From Leptolyngbya sp. 'hensonii' (GTDB lineage Bacteria; Cyanobacteriota; Cyanobacteriia; GCF-001939115), in the NCBI RefSeq assembly GCF_001939115.1, contig NZ_MQTZ01000057.1:1-57430 (forward strand): a DNA stretch of 57,430 bases, written 5' to 3'. The notes beneath the pieces are model-generated. The model ran no database searches, had not been told where the DNA came from, and was given only the letters and a program-made list of their open reading frames with translations. The translations under genes were made by a program, and so were the position numbers. Position 1 is the first letter of the stretch. Every line of letters starts with the position of its first letter. This document shows, piece after piece, positions 47,915-53,937 of this stretch.

Positions 47915-48871
47915 TTATCGGCGCAGGAAAACAAAGGCAACCACAATCAGGAAGCCAATGATGCTACCGGGTACTAGGGCTTGTAGCCACTCGTTCTTGG
48001 CCAATCTCCCGGAGCGGGTAGATTTGGGCTTCACGGCTGGGGCCGGATCGGGCAGGTAAGCTGGGGGATAGACTGCGGGAAGATTTTTGGCCCACAGATC
48101 CCGCAGCATGTCCCGGGCTGAAGGGTAGCGATTGCGGGGCTGAAGTTCTGTGGCTTTGTTCAGAACTGCTACCAGTTGTGGACTGATATTGGCGGCGTAG
48201 CCCTGCCACATCAGGCGTCGGGCCCGCATGGCTTCTAAATCGGTGGGCAAAATTCCGGTCAGCAGGTGAATGGCTGTGAGGCCCAGGTCGTATAGATCGG
48301 CTGCAGTCGTTAACCGATCGCGGTTGGAGCGTAAGGGGAGGACTGCCTGCTTAGAGGAGGGCAGGCCACTGTAAATCGCCTGTTTGAACCCACTGAAATT
48401 AATCAACATCGGTTCGCTGTCTCGGATGCGCAAAATGATGTTATCAGCCTGGATCGCCCCGTGAATGATCTTTTTACTGTGCAAATAATCCAGCAGTCCT
48501 AACAGGCGGATCAGCAGAGCCTGAACTAGGGCCTCGCTGAACGGACCTTCCTGTTGGAGTTTTTCGCTCAGGGATTGGCCATCAACCCATTCCCGGACCA
48601 GGTAAAACCAGCCCGATCGGCCAAAGTGACTGAATGTGGTGGGGAGCTGATTACTGCGCTTACTCAGTTCAGTCAGGGTTGTGGCCGATCGACGAAACTG
48701 ATCTTGCACCCGTCGGCGTAGACGGACCTGGGTGGGTGCAGGCCCATACTCCTTGACCACACACCAGCGATGGGGATTAACCCACGTATCCTGAGCCAGA
48801 AACGTGGAGCATAAGTCACCAGTACCGAGGGTCTGGACAATCAAGTAGCGATTATTCAGGAGGATGGTCAT
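47915..48871 (-). CDS. Protein kinase-like pseudokinase with membrane anchor
   Basis: The 318-residue protein keeps the Ser/Thr kinase fold but has lost key residues. The VAIK Lys is kept (CVVKEYG), HRD has become HGA (IIHGAIQADN) and DFG has become NFS (INFSGFK), and the glycine loop reads GTGDLC. So phosphotransfer is unlikely; ATP or another ligand may still bind. A C-terminal membrane helix (ALVPGSIIGFLIVVAFVFL) anchors it. Its start overlaps the stop of the ribulose-kinase gene by 4 bp. Confidence 0.85.
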   Translation of the reverse strand: MTILLNNRYLIVQTLGTGDLCSTFLAQDTWVNPHRWCVVKEYGPAPTQVRLRRRVQDQFRRSATTLTELSKRSNQLPTTFSHFGRSGWFYLVREWVDGQSLSEKLQQEGPFSEALVQALLIRLLGLLDYLHSKKIIHGAIQADNIILRIRDSEPMLINFSGFKQAIYSGLPSSKQAVLPLRSNRDRLTTAADLYDLGLTAIHLLTGILPTDLEAMRARRLMWQGYAANISPQLVAVLNKATELQPRNRYPSARDMLRDLWAKNLPAVYPPAYLPDPAPAVKPKSTRSGRLAKNEWLQALVPGSIIGFLIVVAFVFLRR

Positions 48872-50121
48872 TGCAGCAGGATTCCTCGCATGGCCAGCAG
48901 GGCTGTCCCATAGGCGGCTTCAGTTTGGGCAGAAGGGGAGACAGGCACTCGCAGGTGACGGGCACGAATGTGGGTCCAGGACCGGTTTTTTGCCCCTCCG
49001 CCAGCGGTGTAGACCTGACTCAATGGTGTTGCACCCAACTCTTGCAGCAAATCATAACCCCGCGCTTCAATTCGCGCTATGCTCTCCAGCAATCCGTGCA
49101 GGAAAGAAATAGGATCGGTGGGCCGGGGCTCCAGTCGGGGTGGATAGTGGGGGTCATTAATGGGAAAGCGTTCCCCCGATCGCAGCAGGGGATAGTAGTC
49201 GAGCGGACTTTCTTGATCCGCCGGAATTTGCTCACTCCAATCCTGTAGTTCTGTAGCCGTAAAATACTGGTTCAACACCGCTCCACCTGTATTGGAGGCT
49301 CCGCCGACCAACCAGAATCGACCGAAACGATGACTGTAGATGCCATAGCCCCTGTGTTCTACGGGAGTCCGGCTCAGGAGCTTCAGGACTAGGGTGGAAC
49401 CTAGGGAGGTGACGGCCTGGCCAGGCGTCGTCACCCCTGCAGCCAGAAAGGCGGCAATACTGTCCGTGGTTCCGGCGCAGACCTGGCAATGGGAGGGCAA
49501 CCCAAATCGATCGCGCACCGCTGGCAATACCGGACCGATCGGGGTGCCTGGGGCCAGCACCCTGGGTAACAGAGGCATGAATTCAGACTGGGTCAGCCAG
49601 TCTGGATAGGTAAGCTGGGTCACGTCATAGCCCAGCTTCAGGCCATTGTGATAGTCGCTGATCCCCGGTTGGCCATGGAGCAGAAACGACAGCCAGTCCG
49701 CCTGGTGCAGGAAGTATCGGGCTTCAGTATAGACGGGCTGGTGTTGCCACCAGAGCAACTTGGCCAGGCTGGAGGTGGCGCTGGCGGCCACATGGTTGGG
49801 CGGAACCCGATCAGACCATTCCGCCTGAAACGCTGCCCCCCGGTCATCGTTATAAAGAATAGGGGCATCAATGGGTTGGCCCTGGCCATCACAGAGAAGC
49901 ACCGTGGCGGAGGTGCCATTGAGGGCGATCGCGGCGATGGTCGAGCGAAGGGTTGCTGGAATTTGCTCGATCAAATCAAACAGAGCCTGGTGCCAGATTT
50001 CAGGCTGTTGATCGGAAGACAAATAGGGATAACTGCCCTGGACTGCGATCTGGCCGCTGCTATCAATGACGATCGCCCTTGCGCCAGATGTACCAAAGTC
50101 AATTCCCAGATAAGCGTTCAT
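48868..50121 (-). CDS. FGGY family carbohydrate kinase (SePSK-like D-ribulose kinase)
   Basis: The ATG at 50121 follows GAGGA by 5 nt and gives 417 residues. GIDFGTSGARAIVID is the phosphate-binding N-terminus, with ALNGTSATVLLCD, the catalytic region DYHNGLKLGYD, CAGTTDSIAAFLAAGV and GGGAKN. The length and sequence order resemble the crystallised Synechococcus elongatus pentulose kinase SePSK, which uses D-ribulose. The gene overlaps a pseudokinase gene by 4 bp, so they are co-translated. Confidence 0.88.
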   Translation of the reverse strand: MNAYLGIDFGTSGARAIVIDSSGQIAVQGSYPYLSSDQQPEIWHQALFDLIEQIPATLRSTIAAIALNGTSATVLLCDGQGQPIDAPILYNDDRGAAFQAEWSDRVPPNHVAASATSSLAKLLWWQHQPVYTEARYFLHQADWLSFLLHGQPGISDYHNGLKLGYDVTQLTYPDWLTQSEFMPLLPRVLAPGTPIGPVLPAVRDRFGLPSHCQVCAGTTDSIAAFLAAGVTTPGQAVTSLGSTLVLKLLSRTPVEHRGYGIYSHRFGRFWLVGGASNTGGAVLNQYFTATELQDWSEQIPADQESPLDYYPLLRSGERFPINDPHYPPRLEPRPTDPISFLHGLLESIARIEARGYDLLQELGATPLSQVYTAGGGAKNRSWTHIRARHLRVPVSPSAQTEAAYGTALLAMRGILLQ

Positions 50122-50301
50122 TGCAATCCTCACAGGGATTCAATTTTCCAGATGGTATTAATTTTTTCTGTTTGATTCTTCTGGGGCCTGTAGGCTTGAA
50201 TAAAATTTTTTTCACGACCTATTCGATCAGGCGTGTTACTTCTCCCTGTTGTTGTTCCCAGGTTCCAGTCATAACAACTGTAAGGTAGTCGGAGTACAGT
50301 G

Positions 50302-50646: not shown

Positions 50647-50952
50647 CTATCTCCTGAGCACATTCATCAGCCCAACGACGAAACAGGGACCCGTGAGGAA
50701 CGTGATCATGGTTGCGCCGATCAGCATCCCTTTCATCAGACCCCAGTTGCGTCCCTGTTGCAGCCAAAGCACGATCGGCAGCACATAGATCCATTGCCAG
50801 ATGCCGACCGAGAACCAGAGGGCCAGAAATCGGTAGTCGCGGTTAAAGGGGGGCAGGAAGGCCAGAACCAGGGAGAAGAAAAAAGCTAGCCCGAGCGCTA
50901 GCAATAGCCCCAACCCGATTTCAACACCTTCATTTCTCTGGGACATGGGCAA
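50647..50952 (-). CDS. Small membrane protein, paralogue of its neighbour
   Basis: The 101-residue protein has three to four hydrophobic segments (GLLLALGLAFFFSLVLAFL, RFLALWFSVGIWQWIYVLPIVLWL and a last one). It ends WLQQGRNWGLMKGMLIGATMITFLTGPCFVVGL, which closely matches the end of the next gene's product. The two are tandem duplicates. It is the last gene of the operon with the radical SAM and Lgt-like genes, 11 bp from its paralogue. Confidence 0.75.
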   Translation of the reverse strand: MPMSQRNEGVEIGLGLLLALGLAFFFSLVLAFLPPFNRDYRFLALWFSVGIWQWIYVLPIVLWLQQGRNWGLMKGMLIGATMITFLTGPCFVVGLMNVLRR

Positions 50953-50963
50953 CTTCTAATCCT

Positions 50964-51314
50964 CTAGCGGATAAAGAGGGAAACGACGAAAGGACTGGCA
51001 TTCAAGAAGGCTGTAATCGTAGCACCAGCAATCACACCCTTCATCATGCCCCAATGTTGACGGCGCTGTAACCAGAGAATGAGGGGGATCACGTACAGGA
51101 GTTGGGCCACGCCGATCGACAGGAAAATCGCAATGAATAACACTGCAATGACCAAAAAAAAGTCGGAGGGAATGCGGTAGTAGTTGCCACTGGTGGGCGT
51201 AAGATAACAGGTGGCATAGACAATACCGCCACTCAGGGCCAGGATCAAACTGTTGATGCCGATGACCAGAAAAAAGCCCAGGATGATGCCGATCGCTTGA
51301 TTACGTTGGGTCAT
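50964..51314 (-). CDS. Small membrane protein, paralogue of its neighbour
   Basis: The ATG at 51314 overlaps the radical SAM stop in ATGA, giving 116 residues; longer starts inside the upstream gene are not needed. It has about four membrane segments (IGIILGFFLVIGINSLILALSG, DFFLVIAVLFIAIFLSIGVAQLLYVIPLILWL and another). It ends WLQRRQHWGMMKGVIAGATITAFLNASPFVV. Translational coupling ties it to the radical SAM enzyme. The family is unknown to me. Confidence 0.8.
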   Translation of the reverse strand: MTQRNQAIGIILGFFLVIGINSLILALSGGIVYATCYLTPTSGNYYRIPSDFFLVIAVLFIAIFLSIGVAQLLYVIPLILWLQRRQHWGMMKGVIAGATITAFLNASPFVVSLFIR

Positions 51315-52732
51315 GATTTTTGCCGATGGGTAATCAGAGCAGACCCCGCACTTCCTTCCCGATAGAACATGTTGTAAGTGTCGAAGGGAATGATGCGGCC
51401 ATCTGGATGGGCAATGTGGATGCACGATCGTTTGACGGAACGCACATCAAAATTAAAAGGGTCCAGAAATTGCATGATCAGGATGCGAAAAACATTCTCA
51501 TAGGTCAGTCCGGCTGGGACTGATACCAGGGGCAAACAGCACAGCAACTGCTTCAAGGTGGTGGCGGATGAAGCAGGGGAATGGTTGGTCGAAAAGAGCT
51601 TAAAAATCTGCTGTTTGAGGGCTTCATCCTGTTCGTAGACCACCGAATTGGGCATCACGCTCAGAAACGCCGTGGGGTCCAGTAAGCCGGTCAGGGGTAT
51701 CACCTGCCCCTTCAGCTTCAGGGCATAGGCCATGGCCAGACAATCTGGATGACAGGGGACTGGCAAAATATCCTTGGGTTGGAAATAGGGGCTTTGCTCC
51801 AGAATCGCTCGGCGGACTTCGGTCAGGGTGTAGCGATCGCGCCCTGGTTCAAAGCCCTCCAATCGGCCTGCGGCCTGGATCGGTTGCAAGGTGATCCCCC
51901 GCACGCAGCGTTGTTTCAGGGCATAGTCAATCATGGAGCCAATCTCCTGGTCATTCAACCCCTTCTTCAGGGTGACGACCAGGGTGGTGGAAATCTTGAA
52001 CTCATTCAAATGGGCGATCGCCTGTTCCCGCACAGCGCGCAGATCCGCGCCCCGCAACTCCCGCAGAGCCTGTTCCTGAAAACTGTCGAACTGCAGATAG
52101 ACCTCAATCCCCGGCATGTACTGGCTCAAGCGGTCACAAAAGTCCCGATCGTGGGCCAGCCGCAGCCCATTGGTGTTGATCATCAAGTGCTTGATCGGTC
52201 TGGCCTTGGCCCGATCCAGAATCTGGAAAAACTCCGGATGCAGGGTAGGTTCCCCACCACTGAGCTGGACCACGTCCGGTTCCCCTTCATTGGCCACCAC
52301 CGCATCCAGCATCTGCTCAATCTGGGCCAGACTACGATGACGGCGGGGTTGGTGTGTCGTCTCCGACAGTTCCGCCACCCCTGAATCGGCGTAGCAAATG
52401 GGACAGGAGAGATTGCAGCGATCGGTCACTTCCACCAGGGTCAGGCAACTATGCTGCTCATGGTCTGGGCAAAGCCCACAATCGTAGGGACAGCCATATT
52501 GAATCGGTGTATTAAACTTCAGGGGCATATCCCCTGGCTTGATAAACGCCTGACATTGCTTGTAATAAGCCACATCATCGGCGATCAGCACCTCTTCCCG
52601 CCCATGGCTGGTACAGTGCTTCACCAAATACACTTTCTCGTCCCGGAAGATGATTTTCGCCTCCACCTTGGTCAGGCAGCGGGAACAGACGCTATTGGTC
52701 AGACCATAAAAAAGATAGGGACGTGTCGGCAT
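51311..52732 (-). CDS. Radical SAM protein of the Tes/MJ0619 type
   Basis: The 473-residue enzyme carries the cluster motif CNLSCPIC (Cys106, 110, 113), preceded by GCPYDCGLCPDHEQHSC, a segment I recall from the MJ0619/tetraether-lipid-synthase group. Further Cys at 16, 19, 40 and 60 may hold extra metal sites. SGGEPTLHPEF (about 158) is the SAM-binding GGE motif. The C-terminus has RSCIHIAHPDGRIIPFDTYNMFYR. Archaeal Tes joins lipid tails by C-C bonds. The adjacent Lgt-like gene suggests action on lipid or lipid-linked substrates. Confidence 0.85.
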   Translation of the reverse strand: MPTRPYLFYGLTNSVCSRCLTKVEAKIIFRDEKVYLVKHCTSHGREEVLIADDVAYYKQCQAFIKPGDMPLKFNTPIQYGCPYDCGLCPDHEQHSCLTLVEVTDRCNLSCPICYADSGVAELSETTHQPRRHRSLAQIEQMLDAVVANEGEPDVVQLSGGEPTLHPEFFQILDRAKARPIKHLMINTNGLRLAHDRDFCDRLSQYMPGIEVYLQFDSFQEQALRELRGADLRAVREQAIAHLNEFKISTTLVVTLKKGLNDQEIGSMIDYALKQRCVRGITLQPIQAAGRLEGFEPGRDRYTLTEVRRAILEQSPYFQPKDILPVPCHPDCLAMAYALKLKGQVIPLTGLLDPTAFLSVMPNSVVYEQDEALKQQIFKLFSTNHSPASSATTLKQLLCCLPLVSVPAGLTYENVFRILIMQFLDPFNFDVRSVKRSCIHIAHPDGRIIPFDTYNMFYREGSAGSALITHRQKS

Positions 52733-52752
52733 ACATTGCGCGGATAGGGGAT

Positions 52753-53523
52753 TTATCGCAGATCCAAACGGGTGGTTCCGTCATGCCGTTGCCAGCCCCA
52801 CAGACGGGGAAAATCACGGAAATAATACAGAATGCCTGCTAAACAGGCCACTTGAATGGCACTGAGGCCGAAAAAAGGATGAAAATCGGGTTTAATAAAA
52901 TCGATTAGGAAGCGAAAACCCAGGTAGGCACTCAGATATAGCTTGAATAGATCCCCCGATCGCAACGCCTGTCGATCGCGCGTGCGCAGAAAGATCAGCA
53001 ACAGCAGGAGGAAGCCAATCTCATAAAGTTGGGTCGGATGGCGCAGAACCCCATCCCCAAAATCCATGCCCCAGGGCAGATGGGTGGCCATCCCATGGGT
53101 GCGATCGTCCAGCCCTGTCAAAAAACACCCGATGCGTCCAATCACCATGCCTGCCAGCAACGGATAGACAAAGGCGTCACCTGTGGATTGTTGCACTCCA
53201 ATCCACCTCTTGGTCAGTTCGACCCCAATCAGAGCACCTAATAACGCTCCGACCACTGTTTTCCCGTACAGAAACACCAGCACCAGTTGGGGCCAATCCT
53301 GCCAGAGTAAGTCCAGATGTTGGAGCACCACCAAAACCTTGGCCCCAATCAGGCCCCCCACCAGGCCCCCCACGATGACAGAACTGCGGTGATTGGGGGC
53401 GATCGAGTCTCGGCGAAATTGGGCCAAGGCGAGGTGCAAGGCGGTGCTGTAAGCCAAGATCTCAAACAGTAGGTGGGGATGAACCTTCCATGGGCCAAGG
53501 GGAAGATAAACTGGGAAGTCCAT
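52753..53523 (-). CDS. Divergent prolipoprotein diacylglyceryl transferase (Lgt)-like membrane protein
   Basis: From the ATG at 53523 the product has 256 residues and about seven membrane segments. It keeps Lgt landmarks: GRIGCFLTG (usual GRIGNFIN), HPTQLYE and FRFLIDFIKPD (usual RFxxEFxR). But the essential Asn of GRxGNF is changed, the His of the FHGG segment is missing (YGKTVVGALLG), and the late Glu is Asp. It is therefore probably a paralogue with another lipid substrate. It heads the operon, 20 bp before the radical SAM gene. Confidence 0.82.
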   Translation of the reverse strand: MDFPVYLPLGPWKVHPHLLFEILAYSTALHLALAQFRRDSIAPNHRSSVIVGGLVGGLIGAKVLVVLQHLDLLWQDWPQLVLVFLYGKTVVGALLGALIGVELTKRWIGVQQSTGDAFVYPLLAGMVIGRIGCFLTGLDDRTHGMATHLPWGMDFGDGVLRHPTQLYEIGFLLLLLIFLRTRDRQALRSGDLFKLYLSAYLGFRFLIDFIKPDFHPFFGLSAIQVACLAGILYYFRDFPRLWGWQRHDGTTRLDLR

Positions 53524-53715: not shown

Positions 53716-53937
53716 TTAGTTGTCATACACCCGGCACTCAACAGCCTCGGGATTAGCATCACAGTACTGTTCCAGAGAATTCTTCTGCTTGACTTCCCGC
53801 TGATGAGATGCTTCTGCTTGGAGTTCTTCGACCGCATCCCAGGCGGCGGCACATTCGCCAGAATTTTCTCCGCTGACTTCACAGACAGCGCGAGCCTGGT
53901 CGCGCTCTTGTTCAATTTTTTGTTCGATATTGCTCAT
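53716..53937 (-). CDS. cp12: Calvin cycle regulator CP12
   Basis: The 73-residue protein is a full-length CP12: an N-terminal Cys pair (Cys19, Cys29) in AVCEVSGENSGECAAAWDAVEELQ and a C-terminal pair (Cys59, Cys68) in QYCDANPEAVECRVYD. Oxidised CP12 links GAPDH and phosphoribulokinase into an inactive complex in the dark. Both Cys pairs are kept. The upstream 440 bp has no gene and contains its promoter. Confidence 0.95.
   Translation of the reverse strand: MSNIEQKIEQERDQARAVCEVSGENSGECAAAWDAVEELQAEASHQREVKQKNSLEQYCDANPEAVECRVYDN

Follow-up and report, generated by a model that had tools for sequence, protein, structure and literature searches.

What is made by an operon in which a relative of the prolipoprotein transferase Lgt lies beside a radical S-adenosylmethionine (SAM) enzyme with the fold of Tes, which joins lipid chains in archaea? 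The question is raised by contig NZ_MQTZ01000057.1 of Leptolyngbya sp. 'hensonii', of which positions 1 to 57,430 were analyzed (the window), where four minus-strand genes encode an Lgt-like membrane protein (P0001), a radical SAM enzyme (P0002) and two small membrane proteins (P0003 and P0004). The original prediction, made from the letters of the window, proposed a lipid or lipoprotein modification, for example by tail linking. The Lgt-like and radical SAM genes form a conserved module. Soil bacteria and uncultured ocean archaea retain the same two genes, so that the pair probably makes or alters a membrane lipid by a route not yet described. No published link of Lgt-family proteins with Tes-type enzymes was found in the literature, most subscription journals lying outside the search.

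A scan of GTDB genomes yielded 80 loci related to the radical SAM gene, spanning Cyanobacteria, Melainabacteria/Obscuribacterales, Paenibacillaceae and allies, Acidobacteria, Planctomycetes, Pseudomonadota and Marine Group II archaea. The Lgt-like gene was present in 70 of these, usually adjacent to the radical SAM gene, which bears out the operon conservation proposed as a check on the original prediction. The pair occurs in Cyanobacteria, Obscuribacterales, Paenibacillaceae, Acidobacteria, Planctomycetes and Marine Group II archaea. Six of the loci without the Lgt-like gene (L019, L063, L067, L090, L094 and L097) were truncated at contig ends or spread over more than one contig, and for the genomes of four of them an Lgt-like gene or fragment was found on another contig; three (L089, L091 and L093) had a methyltransferase in its place, and L092 was degenerate. 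In a partly redundant set of 115 loci, the Lgt-like gene was at most 30 bp upstream of the radical SAM gene, or overlapping it, in 73. Across 292 cyanobacterial genomes the radical SAM clade was found in 9 (≥63% identity) and the Lgt-like family in 8, all of them among the 9 (hypergeometric P = 7.6e-15, kinship ignored). Divergence of the two proteins was correlated (Mantel r = 0.905, P = 0.001), which shared ancestry explains in part. Of 243 Thermoplasmatota genomes sampled, 5 held the radical SAM clade, as did about 14 of 247 from Acidobacteriota and 43 of 248 from the Paenibacillus order. The nearest relatives of the window's module were from Leptolyngbyaceae and allies.

P0001 is a Lgt-like protein with seven transmembrane segments. 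It matched Pfam PF01790 (LGT) at 100.2 bits (gathering cut-off 24.9; E = 1.5e-28) and fell below the NCBIfam Lgt equivalog cut-offs (65.4 vs. 334 bits and 49.7 vs. 118.9 bits). The host genome (5.94 Mb assembly, 77 contigs) holds two PF01790 genes, P0001 and a separate canonical Lgt (278 bits). AlphaFold2 models of P0001 and P0002 were built from alignments of window and locus proteins. The P0001 model (predicted local distance difference test score, pLDDT = 93.7) matched E. coli Lgt (5azb) with Z = 14.3 and a root-mean-square deviation (rmsd) of 5.4 over 237 residues, the next match having Z = 6.6. The essential residues used for comparison were those of E. coli Lgt, in which Arg143 and Arg239 form the site that activates the phosphatidylglycerol donor and the HGGL motif was proposed to bind the lipobox peptide (PMC4728403). 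Arg143, Arg239, Tyr235 and Asp129 (R134, R208, Y204 and D120 of P0001 in a 260-residue numbering) were invariant in all 83 Lgt-like rows of the alignment, and the Gly154 equivalent was invariant in the family. His103 of HGGL was replaced in all 81 rows (Val in 77, including P0001, Ile in 3 and Leu in 1), Asn146 by Cys in 83 of 83 and Arg246 by Lys; Glu243 was Asp or Glu, and a new Lys just before the HGGL position was nearly invariant (80/81). Since the donor-site arginines are retained and His103 is lost, the donor side of the protein has been kept and the acceptor side changed. The statement that the protein lacks key Lgt residues was thus correct for His103 and Asn146, but not for the four invariant ones.

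P0002 matched the Pfam domains Radical_SAM (E = 5.4e-25) and HMPTM zinc ribbon (E = 5.3e-17). Its top NCBIfam model was TrsS (NF045646, 314.8 bits, below the cut-off of 490); the Tes model (NF045702) gave 284.7 bits, below its cut-off of 450. The closest PDB sequence was 7tol (MJ0619, GDGT-MAS; E = 2.7e-61), and no close paralogue of the gene was present in the host genome. The AlphaFold2 model (pLDDT = 89.7) agreed with 7tom over its full length (Z = 47.6, rmsd 2.6, 409 residues, about 33% identity to MJ0619 in the structural alignment), the next unrelated entry having Z = 20.0. By this structural comparison, which the original prediction had put forward as a check, P0002 as modeled has the complete Tes fold. 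The assignment to the MJ0619/Tes group by motif was right as to fold, but the DCGLCPxHxQHxC motif is not MJ0619's own, which reads DCGLCPNHKSTTI.

Active-site residues were compared with the MJ0619 numbering of PMC9433317 (chain 7tol is offset by 20). In P0002 the rubredoxin-type/HMPTM zinc-ribbon site is C16/C19/C40/H43, with H43 replaced by Cys in 13 of 89 rows, the N-terminal [4Fe-4S] site is C81/C85/C88/H91 (3 Cys and a His, conserved), and the conserved CX3CX2C of the radical SAM (RS) cluster is C106/C110/C113. Most SAM contacts were kept in the clade (Gln268, Arg210, Tyr195, Asp199 and Arg275 of MJ0619). The C-terminal site was different. Judged from conservation, the three Cys ligands of the C-terminal [4Fe-4S] cluster in Tes would be C338, C455 and C470, with Met439 as the labile ligand in MJ0619 (PMC9433317). 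C470 was replaced by Asp in all 91 rows of the Lgt-linked clade having the residue (D451 in P0002) and C455 by Ser, Thr or Ala (S436 in P0002); the C338 equivalent was still Cys in 57 of 89 rows, and that of Met439 was Met in 66 and Val in 18 of 89. Cys327 (88/89) and Cys437 (88/88) were retained in this clade, as in TrsS-like relatives. A Cys pair, CC398-399, was invariant in the Lgt-linked rows (89/89) and missing from three methyltransferase-linked rows and from the Tes side.

The archaeal members bear on the acceptor. In 7 of 7 Marine Group II genomes, some perhaps incomplete, the Lgt-like gene was the only Lgt-family match. PlsC-family acyltransferases were present in the same 7 genomes, in accord with published bacterial-type lipid genes in this group, in which glycerol-1-phosphate dehydrogenase is missing and the membrane lipids are unknown (PMC6962369). 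A Tes homologue was reported in 1 of 231 Marine Group II metagenome-assembled genomes by Zeng et al. (PMC8941075).

The reading we favor, which we hold to have about an even chance of being correct, is a two-enzyme lipid pathway in which the radical SAM enzyme makes or modifies an acceptor other than a lipoprotein, and this acceptor receives the diacylglyceryl group of phosphatidylglycerol. Linkage, co-occurrence, co-variation, both folds, the kept Lgt donor residues beside the lost acceptor motif, and the loss of the Tes C-terminal ligands argue for it, as do the restriction of CC398-399 to Lgt-linked members and the sole Lgt-family match in Marine Group II. The cytosolic, Tes-fold radical SAM enzyme would act first, on a hydrophobic or membrane-bound substrate from which it would abstract a hydrogen atom, and would make or modify a nucleophilic acceptor. 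The Lgt-like enzyme, using the donor pocket inherited from Lgt, would then strip phosphatidylglycerol of its diacylglyceryl group and pass this to the acceptor rather than to a lipobox cysteine. A diglyceride lipid with an ether or thioether linkage would result, and the small membrane proteins may be helpers or scaffolds. Here we infer the substrate, the order of the steps and the product. Somewhat more tentatively, the module could define a new lipid class, made by several bacterial phyla and Marine Group II, with an Lgt-derived transferase for a non-protein acceptor and a Tes-derived enzyme whose C-terminal cluster was rebuilt or lost. Several points weigh against this two-enzyme pathway. 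The putative diacylglyceryl transfer is read from residues only. The CC region (residues 379-401 of P0002) has pLDDT under 50 in the AlphaFold2 model. The C-terminal site carries an invariant polar Asp451 together with Ser/Thr436, which could imply a polar, non-lipid substrate, and the pairing of sister and ingroup relatives with an ArsM-type DVU_1556 methyltransferase hints at small-molecule chemistry.

The last point is one basis of a possible, if unlikely, alternative, a Trs-type small-metabolite pathway (e.g. organosulfur, organoselenium or organoarsenic) with a product that is methylated in sister lineages and made lipid-soluble by diacylglyceryl transfer here. The TrsS model outscores Tes for P0002 (315 vs. 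285 bits), but P0002 lies below the TrsS cut-off of 490 and the function of TrsS is itself unknown. In a Thermoplasmatota relative (L191:5674-7949), a TrsS-like radical SAM gene and the gene of a DVU_1556-like, ArsM-like methyltransferase share 4 bp, near what we take to be an AhpD-like gene. This methyltransferase is related (38% identity) to those adjoining the radical SAM gene in L089, L091 and L093, ingroup members from Pseudomonadota and Planctomycetota, whose genomes lack the Lgt-like gene and gave only a canonical-type Lgt. No DVU_1556-type methyltransferase adjoined the radical SAM gene in the window or in the Lgt-linked members examined, which counts against such a pathway. As the methyltransferase replaces the Lgt-like gene in the three ingroup members and the Thermoplasmatota relative, the Lgt-like gene seems to have come in by a swap of partners: what the radical SAM enzyme makes is methylated in one setting and, we infer, diacylglycerylated in the other.

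Tes-like coupling, in which the radical SAM enzyme would join fatty acyl tails of bacterial lipids, giving lipids that span the membrane or are branched, with the Lgt-like protein presenting or remodeling phosphatidylglycerol, is quite unlikely. It would suit the full Tes fold (Z = 47.6) and the retained RS, rubredoxin-type and N-terminal cluster sites, and the loss of one cluster is compatible with C-C chemistry, given that GrsA/B alter the tails of glycerol dialkyl glycerol tetraethers (GDGTs) apparently without auxiliary clusters (PMC11186832). However, in Tes the coupling intermediate is attached through a carbon-sulfur bond to the C-terminal cluster (PMC9433317), whose ligands are lost here (C470 to Asp in all 91 rows, C455 to Ser/Thr/Ala), so the Tes mechanism is unlikely for P0002 unless other cysteines, such as Cys327, Cys398, Cys399 and Cys437, rebuild a cluster. 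The phylogeny also separates the two. In a quick radical SAM tree (LG+G4, no mixture model) P0002 fell in a clade of 49 rows (SH-aLRT 100, branch 0.6), and MJ0619 in a separate clade of 12 rows (support 100), so that the enzyme does not group with Tes as had been supposed; with the Tes score of 285 against a cut-off of 450 and the lost ligands, tail linking is unsupported. To our knowledge, on a literature search of limited depth, diabolic-type lipids have not been reported from Paenibacillus or Leptolyngbya, which also weighs against coupling. The Marine Group II sequences were interspersed among bacterial ones in the tree, and this nesting suggests transfer from bacteria. Many Acidobacteriota have a second, longer (about 630-860 amino acids) and distant Tes relative (about 29% identity; L108:1231-3321 and L109:1231-3357), which is a possible candidate for iso-diabolic or branched GDGT lipids.

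Lipidation of a ribosomal peptide or special lipoprotein, modified by the radical SAM enzyme and given diacylglycerol on its cysteine by the Lgt-like protein, would fit the Lgt-family fold of P0001 and has a parallel in another system, in which a modified peptide is lipidated through the lipoprotein pathway (PMC12636315), but is the least probable reading given the loss of His103 of the acceptor motif, the lack of any other Lgt in Marine Group II, and conserved small genes that encode membrane proteins only, no conserved precursor or lipobox peptide having been found among the small-open-reading-frame (ORF) clusters at the loci (a precursor elsewhere in the genome is possible).

The small-ORF families shared across lineages at the loci were membrane proteins or shadow ORFs of the two large genes; the remainder were confined to one lineage. 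P0003 and P0004 had no Pfam family match. They are paralogues, as originally described (48% identity over 54 amino acids, E = 1e-18). Just after the radical SAM gene, cyanobacteria and Paenibacillaceae encode a small membrane protein of the P0003 family (F2), which matched F80 of Obscuribacterales (hhalign probability 96). The Marine Group II families F4 and F7 have a common C-terminus, and other lineages have different small membrane proteins beside or between the two module genes. These proteins are often twinned (the window, L009, L060-L062, L049 and Acidobacteria). A single universal third component was rejected, as those of the remaining lineages were not recognizably related to F2/F80 or F4/F7. 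Domain fusion was likewise rejected, overlong Lgt-like and radical SAM ORFs having no extra Pfam domain, and what seems a joint ORF in Paenibacillus sp. P25 (L096) is more likely a product of frameshifts; both module genes there (L096:3938-6365) are broken across several frames, by pseudogene formation or sequencing error. In Edaphobacter lichenicola (L092:5055-6408) the radical SAM gene is apparently frameshifted near its start, with a cluster cysteine lost (GRPYDCGLCP), and the genome gave no good Lgt-like match; one partner is decaying and the other gone.

The layout of the operon was as first described. The ORF map gave a gap of 20 bp between the Lgt-like and radical SAM genes, an ATGA junction (4 bp overlap) between the radical SAM gene and P0003, and 11 bp between P0003 and P0004 from its TTG start (17 bp from the ATG). 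Upstream, a 73-residue ORF (window 53716-53937, minus strand) presumably encodes a protein resembling the Calvin-cycle regulator CP12. Downstream (window 47915-50133, minus strand), a XylB-like FGGY carbohydrate kinase gene and a protein-kinase-like gene share 4 bp. In one Marine Group II lineage (L078, L079, L081-L084 and L086) the module is flanked by genes that we take to be aquaporin/glycerol-facilitator-like (F5 and F19).

Genes of the operon, with positions counted in the window
Feature	Position	Strand	Length (amino acids)	Remarks
P0001, Lgt-like integral membrane transferase	52753..53523	-	256	
P0002, Tes-fold radical SAM enzyme	51311..52732	-	473	
P0003, small membrane protein 1	50964..51314	-	116	family F2; 4 bp overlap with radical SAM gene
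P0004, small membrane protein 2	50647..50952	-	101 (from TTG 50952)	alternative start ATG 50946; paralogue of P0003

Because the gene pair is conserved across domains, the initial observation is stronger than the sequence alone could have made it. A conserved operon joins a lipid-transferase fold with the Tes fold, and a lipid or lipid-linked modification is the best reading; lipoprotein modification is disfavored by the loss of His103 and by the lack of a further Lgt in Marine Group II. The part that Tes homologues play in bacteria has yet to be settled (PMC8941075, PMC11868695, PMC9433317): Zeng et al. proposed branched tetraether synthesis (PMC8941075), and Lloyd et al. noted such homologues in species not known for biphytanyl chains (PMC9433317). 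In Paenibacillus and Leptolyngbya, which can be cultured, the module provides two defined genes for testing this role and the lipids of Marine Group II. A Tes-like match, whether from a bacterium or from Marine Group II, does not by itself indicate tetraether lipids, and a candidate Lgt subfamily with an altered acceptor is added.

Compared with known systems, P0002 shares with Tes/GDGT-MAS (MJ0619; 7TOL, 7TOM) the full fold, the rubredoxin-type site, the N-terminal [4Fe-4S] site with its His, the RS cluster and the SAM contacts, but differs in its separate clade, the Ser/Thr/Ala and Asp in place of C-terminal [4Fe-4S] ligands, the new invariant Cys327, Cys437 and CC398-399, and the Lgt-like partner gene. 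With TrsS (NF045646) and its DVU_1556-family methyltransferase (NF045667) it shares the top NCBIfam model, and a sister lineage and three ingroup members are paired likewise; P0002 differs in scoring under the cut-off and in having an Lgt-like partner instead of a methyltransferase. P0001 has in common with Lgt (5AZB) PF01790, the fold and the Arg143, Arg239, Tyr235, Asp129 and Gly154 equivalents, and departs from it in His103 (Val/Ile), Asn146 (Cys), Arg246 (Lys), the new Lys before the HGGL position and the sub-equivalog scores.

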